In this document: positions 42,029 through 43,504 of the stretch, piece by piece | How positions within the stretch are numbered: position 1 is the stretch's first letter | How the letters are laid out: every line of letters begins with the position of its first letter | DNA from: Alphaproteobacteria bacterium | Lineage (GTDB): Bacteria > Pseudomonadota > Alphaproteobacteria > CAAHEQ01 > UBA3637 | Length of the DNA stretch: 64,000 bases | Reading direction: 5' to 3' | Assembly: GCA_017466695.1 (NCBI GenBank) | Contig: JAFTTR010000022.1 | Span: 1 to 64,000 of the forward strand | Notes under the pieces: generated by a model | Seen by the model: only the letters and a program-made list of their open reading frames with translations | The model's database searches: none | What the model was told of the DNA's origin: nothing | Program-made: the position numbers and the translations under genes

Positions 42029-42054
42029 AAAAGGGAGCTGTTGCTCCCTTTTTT
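42027..42054. terminator. Bidirectional terminator between dmeF-like and OMP genes
   Basis: Perfect 12-bp stem AAAAAAGGGAGC/GCTCCCTTTTTT, TGTT loop. It overlaps the stop codons of two convergent genes. Confidence 0.9.
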
Positions 42055-42820
42055 AAAATGAGACTCGAGCTCCTGTGTAAATTTCATTGGTTATTGTATC
42101 TATTTCTATGCCATTTTTCTTGAAGCTACCATAATCAATAAATCTATATCCTGTATCGATGCTAAAGTGATCTGTAAAGTCTATAGAAATGCCGAATCCA
42201 CCTTGATAGGCAAAAGTTGTTTTTTTGATATCTCCAGTTAGTTCATCAAAAGTTGATTTTATAGAGCCTTTAATTCTAGCTAAACCTAATCCTGCGCTGA
42301 TATAAGGTGAAAAAATGGTTTTTGTTGGGAAATGATAGTACCCGTTTATCAATAGTGCTTGTGATTCTATTTTTAATTTTTCTTTTAAATCGTTAAAAAG
42401 AAGTTGAACATCTCTTTCTGCTGCGCTATTTTTGTTATATTCAATTTCTGCTCTAAGTGTTCCTATAGGTGTCTTGCTGGTTGTACCTAAAGCTATGCTA
42501 CCTCCAAAAGAAGCATCATCGATACTTTTAATATTAAGAGCATCATGCACTTCATCAATTTTAACGTCAGCATTGGTATTATTATATTTTACTTTTCCAC
42601 TGATATAAACTTTTGTATCATATTTTTTAGTAAAATCTGATTGAATAGGTTTATATTTTACTGGGTTAGTATATGTTTGAACATACTGTGTTTGTGGTAT
42701 TTGTGTTGGTTGATAAAAATAAATAGGTTGTTGATTTTGTGATGGATAATAATAGAGTTCTTGAGCGAATGCACTGAATGAACAGACTGTTATCGTCCCC
42801 AATAATAAAAGTTTTTTCAT
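42053..42820 (-). CDS. Outer-membrane beta-barrel protein
   Basis: A 255-residue exported protein. Signal peptide about 1-19 (AFAQ cleavage); then a Tyr/Gln/Pro-rich stretch (20-60) and an eight-stranded-barrel-like region with alternating hydrophobic strands, including YISAGLGLARIKG and FAYQGGFGISIDF, and a C-terminal strand ending in Phe (TGARVSF), the usual barrel-assembly signal. It resembles the OmpA/opacity-type small porin fold. Ribosome-binding site AAAGGAAGG. Upstream lies a structured untranslated RNA ending in a terminator, so expression is probably controlled after initiation. Confidence 0.82.
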   Translation of the reverse strand: MKKLLLLGTITVCSFSAFAQELYYYPSQNQQPIYFYQPTQIPQTQYVQTYTNPVKYKPIQSDFTKKYDTKVYISGKVKYNNTNADVKIDEVHDALNIKSIDDASFGGSIALGTTSKTPIGTLRAEIEYNKNSAAERDVQLLFNDLKEKLKIESQALLINGYYHFPTKTIFSPYISAGLGLARIKGSIKSTFDELTGDIKKTTFAYQGGFGISIDFTDHFSIDTGYRFIDYGSFKKNGIEIDTITNEIYTGARVSF

Positions 42821-42842: not shown

Positions 42843-43030
42843 AATAAAATCGCCTGATGAAGGCGACTGGAAGTTGGAAACTACTTAACAGAATAGTGCG
42901 ATATATTTGTGTGTATACACTTATTTTACCGCCTTCCAGTCGTACTGGAAAGCGTGCAAAATTTTACGTCATTACACCCTGACGCTGTTAAAGAGGTTTC
43001 CACACCTCAGGCAAGACATCACCTTGCCAT
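42843..43030 (-). ncRNA. Structured RNA or leader with intrinsic terminator, upstream of the OMP gene
   Basis: A region of about 190 nt, richer in G+C than its surroundings, without an open frame. Read on the minus strand it has a promoter (43065-43037), a first hairpin (GGCAAG/CTTGCC, 43026-43008), a long-range stem (43001-42985 with 42891-42876), two internal hairpins (CGTCA/TGACG, and an 11-bp stem 42954-42944/42940-42930), and a terminator TCGCCT/AGGCGA plus TTTTATT (42866-42843). Then come 22 bp to the OMP start. Alternative pairings exist: CTTCCAGTCG (42873-42864) with 42942-42933, and TTGCCTGA with TCAGGCGA over the terminator arm. No Rfam family recognised; could be a riboswitch-like leader or a separate small RNA. 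Confidence 0.65.
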
Positions 43031-43036
43031 ACTTTA

Positions 43037-43065
43037 ATTTTATATCTAAATATGAAAAATGTAAA
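43037..43065 (-). promoter_or_regulatory. Promoter of the structured RNA/OMP gene
   Basis: On the minus strand TTTACA (43065-43060), 17-bp spacer, TAAAAT (43042-43037). The 150 bp to its right (43066-43221) hold nothing recognised. Confidence 0.6.
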
Positions 43066-43221: not shown

Positions 43222-43275
43222 ATAAAAAAACCGACCAAAAGGTCGGTGGTTTTTTATTGGAGCGGGTGAAGGGAT
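43222..43275 (-). repeat. Direct repeat copy A: tRNA-Gly 3' end plus terminator
   Basis: 54 bp almost identical to 43393-43447 (one extra A in copy B). On the minus strand it contains the last 18 nt of tRNA-Gly(GCC), ending CCCGCTCCA, followed by a terminator hairpin ACCGACC/GGTCGGT. The rest of a tRNA is missing. Confidence 0.9.
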
Positions 43276-43392: not shown

Positions 43393-43447
43393 ATAAAAAA
43401 AACCGACCAAAAGGTCGGTGGTTTTTTATTGGAGCGGGTGAAGGGAT
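43393..43447 (-). repeat. Direct repeat copy B: 3' end and terminator of the intact tRNA-Gly
   Basis: The genuine 3' end of tRNA-Gly(GCC) and its intrinsic terminator (stem ACCGACC/GGTCGGT with T-run on the minus strand). Duplicated as copy A 171 bp further left. Confidence 0.9.
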
Positions 43448-43504
43448 TCGAACCCTCGACATCAACCTTGGCAAGGTTGCGCTCTACCCCTGAGCTACGC
43501 CCGC
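43430..43504 (-). tRNA. tRNA-Gly (anticodon GCC), CCA encoded
   Basis: Minus-strand cloverleaf: acceptor GCGGGCG, D-loop GGGGTA region, anticodon loop TTGCCAA, T-loop GGTTCGAATC and encoded CCA. The acceptor 3' strand reads CACCCGC, so pair 6:67 is a C-A mismatch; the same 3' strand pairs perfectly in the tRNA-Gly(TCC) at 23.2 kb. Terminator follows directly. Confidence 0.95.

Follow-up and report, generated by a model that had tools for sequence, protein, structure and literature searches.

The stretch of DNA analysed here (the window, 64,000 nucleotides) carries on its minus strand a leader RNA of 185-190 nt that contains no reading frame, has its own promoter and intrinsic terminator, and ends 22 bp from the start of an outer-membrane protein (OMP) gene. 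The promoter is sigma-70-like (43037..43065; -35 TTTACA, 17 nt, -10 TAAAAT), and the terminator is formed by the hairpin P8 with its U-rich tail (42846..42867, the stem at 42868-42848), which a gap of 22 nt separates from the ATG of the gene at 42820. The gene itself (42053..42820, also on the minus strand) encodes a 255-aa outer-membrane beta-barrel protein (Pfam OMP_b-brl, 3.1e-15) with weak similarity, under the cut-off, to the NCBIfam adhesin Adr. A sequence-only reading of this DNA had described a promoter with 17-bp spacing, about 190 nt without a frame and a terminator 22 bp before the OMP gene, and all of these were found in the window sequence. Its claim of a structured leader RNA is likewise borne out, both by the minimum free energy (MFE) of the window leader, -70.3 kcal/mol compared with -42.4 +/- 3.8 for shuffled sequences (z = -7.35), and by strong compensatory changes across an alignment of homologues, the covariation check which that reading had proposed. 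In searches of the window against Rfam, tRNAs were the sole matches at the gathering threshold, and permissive thresholds (E<=10) yielded nothing convincing over the window copy, the models RF01695 (C4 antisense RNA) and RF02221 (sRNA-Xcc1) included. The window also contains an exact 52-bp direct repeat (43224-43275 and 43396-43447, 172 bp apart) with the same terminator hairpin in each copy, the second of which runs into the 3' end of tRNA-Gly(GCC), 43430-43504.

Conserved fold and competing pairings

A structure with two pseudoknots was named on an alignment of 40 full-length homologues obtained by a DNA search of relatives. In this alignment 92.5% of cells are paired, compared with 30-45% for slid-partner controls, and 31 of the 43 base pairs, the two pseudoknots included, show changes on both sides; P7 and the extended P8 are likewise upheld by covariation. 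Read along the minus strand (helix numbers are those of the covariation counts), the RNA starts with the P1 hairpin GGCAAGG/UCUUGCC (43010..43028; helices 1-3), whose loop GAUG kisses the terminator (P8) loop CAUC in a first pseudoknot, PK1, that also shows compensatory changes (helices 2-3). It is followed by the P2 hairpin GAGG/CCUC (42993..43008; helices 4 and 5), which presents in its loop a short word, address a1 (UGGAAAC, 43002-42996), and by a second word, address b1 (UUAACAG, 42985..42991). The remainder forms a core closed by the helix P4 (42933..42941 with 42865..42873; helix 6), paired in 99.7% of cells with compensatory changes. Within it lie P5 (GCGGUA/UAUCGC), capped by P6 (together 42898..42932; helices 7-8), and the P7 hairpin CUAU/GUAG (42881..42896), paired in 97.5% of cells. 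The P7 loop holds address b' (CUGUUAA, 42891-42885), which b1 matches in cis, and address a' (GUUUCCA, 42875..42881) is located between P7 and the 3' strand of P4. The second pseudoknot, PK2, is the pairing of a1 with a' (helix 5), with 97.1% of cells paired and double changes in five of its six pairs. Unpaired bases of the core (AAAUA...AAUA, CRCUAU, UAG) are conserved as well.

The competing pairings noted in the sequence-only reading fared differently among the homologues. Its long-range stem (43001-42985 with 42891-42876) is present and covaries, and corresponds to the pairing of a1b1 with a'b' known from C4 antisense RNA; in the window family, the 5' and 3' words of the same copy match in 54 of 64 copies at a level that is reached by 5% of mismatched pairs. 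The 10-mer pairing 42873-42864 with 42942-42933, which had been proposed as a competitor, is the closing helix of C4, that is, P4. The inner hairpin that excludes it, Ploc (CUUUCCAGU/ACUGGAAG, 42933..42952), is found in the window family above the level of both shuffled and permuted controls, while the same test gave no Ploc in members of sRNA-Xcc1. The unpseudoknotted MFE fold of the leader combines Ploc with a1.a' and b1.b', and the core alone folds with P4. Both sides of the mutually exclusive choice claimed by that reading, Ploc and P4, are supported. The pairing it had suggested between TTGCCTGA and the terminator arm TCAGGCGA is, however, unconserved: the 5' hairpin strand varies, covarying with its own partner, and the terminator arm is constant, so that this complementarity is a chance match. 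The overlap of P4 with P8 is confined to the two lowest pairs of P8, which share bases with P4, and no antiterminator that would rule out P8 completely could be found among the conserved pairings. A candidate antiterminator, AGGCGGU/GUCGCCU, is present in the window, but P5 of the relatives covaries away from it and it was rejected.

Distribution and kinship with sRNA-Xcc1 and C4 antisense RNA

A covariance model, R1, whose E-values are rough, detected three copies in the genome of origin (the window copy included). It also matched 39 of the 43 genomes from the same family, with up to 42 copies per genome and, of 289 genomes sampled across the class Alphaproteobacteria, 26 that are spread over many families. 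A strict pattern of the core matched 104 stretches in named records, mostly metagenome-assembled genomes of gut and rumen Alphaproteobacteria, and was unmatched in viral contigs. Among 189 copies, a promoter-like site (at least 9 of 12 positions) occurs at the expected place in 56%, compared with 11% in shuffles, and a U-run (at least 6 of 8) occurs at the end in 93%. The homologues come mostly from metagenome-assembled genomes, and the gene calls are mechanical open reading frames (ORFs). Where such an ORF follows the RNA (143 copies), it starts at most 40 nt behind it in 106 cases, and most copies lie 15-40 nt before genes for OMPs, lipoproteins, prepilin-like proteins or glycosyltransferases. 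Thirteen of 86 downstream proteins are OMP beta-barrels, and the rest include glycosyltransferases, lipoproteins, prepilin-like proteins and helix-turn-helix (HTH) regulators, with no single family shared by all. At two loci (L117 and L166) an ORF for an Xre-type HTH regulator lies 30 and 102 nt behind the RNA, respectively; at two others (L097 and L158) RNA copies stand in tandem, about 300 nt or less apart; and a contig binned as Gastranaerophilales (L157) carries an alphaproteobacterial type of both RNA and gene and is probably misbinned. One copy in the genome of origin (L053, C4:80036-80218) is without a clear a1b1.

The sequence-only reading had recognised no known family. That holds for the window copy when it is searched against Rfam, but the family as a whole is connected by intermediates to sRNA-Xcc1 and C4 antisense RNA. 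The RF02221 model, which has a cut-off of 53 bits, assigns 51.7, 44.1 and 40.7 bits to three distant R1 homologues over the same core (L104, L107 and L111), and RF01695 assigns 27.4 bits to the last of these, relative to a gathering threshold of 45. A phylum-wide search with RF02221 and the search with R1 independently matched the same place in the genome of origin (C30:170,1xx; 33.4 bits with RF02221), and copies in another genome, G110, were likewise matched by both models. The window copy, the own-genome copy and L104 all stay under the RF02221 gathering threshold, and the sole own-genome match to RF01695 (20.8 bits, also under threshold) lies elsewhere than the window copy; it is through the intermediates (in the genome of origin, G110, L104, L107 and L111) that the core can be aligned as homologous to that of RF02221. 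The own-genome copy (L054, C30:170102-170299) lies before the gene of a small exported protein. Because GTGTACAA at the start codon complements its own P7 loop, this copy resembles the sRNA-Xcc1 type that has a target at the ribosome-binding site (RBS).

The architecture of the window family includes the fold of the C4 core, in which a closing helix surrounds inner hairpins, one of them exposing b' in its loop, and a' occupies the stretch from this hairpin to the closing helix, as well as the a1b1 copy upstream of the core. The annotation of the phage P1 record gives the order a1, b1, C4, a2, b2. Copies of the target (a2b2) at the downstream RBS could not be recognised in the window family: three multi-copy genomes gave as many matches as the permuted null, and a wider set of window type came close to the null (9.83 matched, 9.36 null). 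By contrast, among 30 genuine sRNA-Xcc1 loci, an a1b1 module lies about 100 nt upstream in 25, above the 95% point of the null, and the address words recur in 14 at the RBS of the gene that follows. At these loci (L220-L249) the Rfam definition of sRNA-Xcc1 appears truncated, the upstream a1b1 and often the a2b2 at the RBS belonging to the locus. Taken together, the alignments and the shared architecture make it very probable that this leader RNA, encoded on the chromosome, belongs to the C4 antisense/sRNA-Xcc1 superfamily. By comparison of the sequences, two changes mark the branch to which the window copy belongs, namely the conversion of P8 into an intrinsic terminator and the loss of the target copy at the RBS.

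This branch resembles C4 of phages P1 and P7 in the order of a1b1, a core with a' and b', and then the gene, in the positions of the addresses within the fold and in being the leader of a regulated operon. It differs in being chromosomal, multi-copy and associated with surface genes, whereas C4 acts on icd/ant, and in having the P8 terminator and a P1 hairpin that kisses the terminator loop but no a2b2 at the RBS. With sRNA-Xcc1 it shares the core fold and the upstream a1b1 module; sRNA-Xcc1 loci, however, lack the U-run terminator at P8 and in many cases carry the addresses a second time at the RBS, and the RNA has been published, unlike the window leader, as an integron-borne trans-acting sRNA. 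The c4-a1b1 motif was listed for gammaproteobacteria and phages by Weinberg et al. (PMC2864571). A group of 21 C4-like sRNAs, Group 1 of Acinetobacter baumannii (PMC5320573), is similar as a large C4-derived chromosomal family with a variable a' loop; it is gammaproteobacterial, though, and described as phage-derived sRNAs, and neither cis-matched addresses nor a role as gene leaders is part of that description. In the literature searched, a single paper mentions both C4 antisense RNA and sRNA-Xcc1; the passages retrieved from it give the two as separate annotations and do not link their architectures.

Copy-specific addresses and a candidate mechanism

The relationship between the addresses of different copies was explored in genomes with many copies by comparing exact complementary words within a copy with mismatched pairs, a test that controls for composition but not for all relatedness. 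Under this test, a copy's own a'b' is matched at least as well as that of any other copy in 24 of 24 copies of one genome (G026), 7 of 7 of a second (G010) and 26 of 29 of a third (G004); own pairs have on average 14-15 matched nucleotides and off-diagonal pairs 7.7-8.3 in these three genomes, with exact duplicate copies producing ties. Cis-matched, copy-specific addresses are also present in a genome with nine copies of sRNA-Xcc1. In G004, the identity between copies is 0.97-1.00 for P1, P2, P4 and P8 and 0.83-1.00 for helices overall, but falls to 0.66 in a' and 0.54 in b', the downstream spacer being near-identical. In G026, b' alone stands out (0.35), the variability of a' not exceeding that of P5 or P8. 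Hypervariability is thus clear for b', and for both addresses in G004 only. This pattern of variation is indicative of selection in favour of differing addresses, with the clearest signal for b. Many members of a G004 gene family whose products have a prepilin-like N-terminus (GRSMVEMLG) have their own RNA about 210 nt upstream (L254-L282), and the address words at these loci recur in differing combinations, as if shuffled. Three of the loci (L257, L280 and L281) have 5' and 3' addresses that mismatch; two of them lie close to the beginning of a contig and are perhaps chimeric assemblies.

The sequence-only reading took the leader for a riboswitch or attenuator, or else for a free-standing small RNA. 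Of this, the structured and conserved leader is supported, and like a riboswitch it combines such a 5' leader with an expression platform. A metabolite or second-messenger riboswitch, with the conserved core as the ligand pocket, pseudoknots holding the core and the terminator as expression platform, would agree with the conserved unpaired core bases, with a terminator that adjoins the gene and with many copies per genome before functionally related surface genes. It is nevertheless not the best reading and we regard it as improbable, because the family has homologues among antisense RNAs whose RNA targets are known and the variable words behave like specificity codes: they differ in almost every copy per genome yet match in cis, which would be needless for a structural pseudoknot, and the other helices hardly vary in G004. 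That last contrast, between addresses and near-identical P1, P2, P4, P8 and spacer, also speaks against neutral drift of ordinary helices in old paralogues, with no specificity role for the addresses; P5, P6 and P8 do differ much between G026 copies, but drift as the whole account seems about as improbable as a riboswitch.

A stand-alone trans-acting sRNA, of about 185 nt or a processed core of about 95 nt, that represses distant mRNAs and has only an incidental neighbour in the adjacent gene is somewhat less improbable, though still unlikely. In part this alternative is right: the leader has its own promoter and terminator, and the terminator should give an RNA of about 185 nt; sRNA-Xcc1 was cloned as a discrete RNA of about 88 nt (PMC2996969), and the C4-like RNAs of A. 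baumannii are abundant and processed (PMC5320573). But the spacing to the co-directional gene is tight and consistent, and the gene start follows so closely behind the terminator that read-through must express the gene. Elsewhere in its own genome, moreover, the window address pair is no more frequent than a reversed control, and the near-contiguous match that was inspected as a distant target (C14:126604) has no obvious RBS and was dropped. Least probable is that promoter and RNA merely happen to sit on an insertion repeat or mobile element: up to 42 copies per genome and relatives in integron cassettes (PMC12444791) would suit it, but no terminal repeats or recombinase were seen at the inspected loci, and the exact placement before the start codons of diverse genes, the old compensatory changes and the lack of matches to the strict core pattern in viral contigs all argue otherwise.

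The explanation that we favour as a whole, and to which we give about an even chance, is a leader of C4/sRNA-Xcc1 type acting as a private attenuation loop. Most transcripts would end at P8 and yield the RNA of about 185 nt, whereas read-through past P8 would allow the surface protein to be made. The addresses a'b' might pair with a1b1 in the same transcript or, if the core is released, with a1b1 of transcripts newly made at that locus; the 5' end of phage P1 C4 is made by RNase P, according to work cited in a passage of PMC5320573. Whether the RNA adopts the Ploc fold or the C4 fold (P4) would depend on this pairing, which would thereby set the strength of the terminator; the two base pairs common to P4 and P8 may help to tune it. 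Such locus-specific antisense attenuation, with its Ploc/P4 choice, is a tentative proposal and, on the sequence comparisons, falls a little short of an even chance. Its logic would be that of pT181-type antisense transcriptional attenuators, where RNA-RNA pairing in the nascent leader through short specificity sequences sets termination; those are not homologous, and here the antisense part would belong to the same strand and the same transcript. Each gene would then have its own antisense-style attenuation loop and, because the addresses differ between copies, dozens of copies could work in one cell without cross-talk. More speculative, and in our estimate rather doubtful, is the extension that these loci form a natural library of orthogonal, address-coded attenuators, in which dozens of surface genes of a single small genome are each under private feedback by a core cut from the gene's own terminated leader, with selection keeping the addresses distinct so that cross-talk is avoided.

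Implications for C4-type RNAs

If the private addresses are functional, they would amount to naturally occurring orthogonal RNA regulators, a kind that has been built artificially in synthetic biology (PMC3753616). The analysis also suggests a different view of sRNA-Xcc1, so far described as an sRNA that acts in trans and for which hundreds of targets have been predicted: it may form the antisense portion of a leader that works in cis and often has its target at the RBS of the following gene. The branch that includes the window copy is a large and previously unrecognised one of the C4 antisense RNA kind, with tens of copies placed before surface genes of gut and rumen bacteria. These observations suggest that a widespread chromosomal control system in Alphaproteobacteria is formed by C4-type RNAs, which are familiar chiefly from phage immunity.
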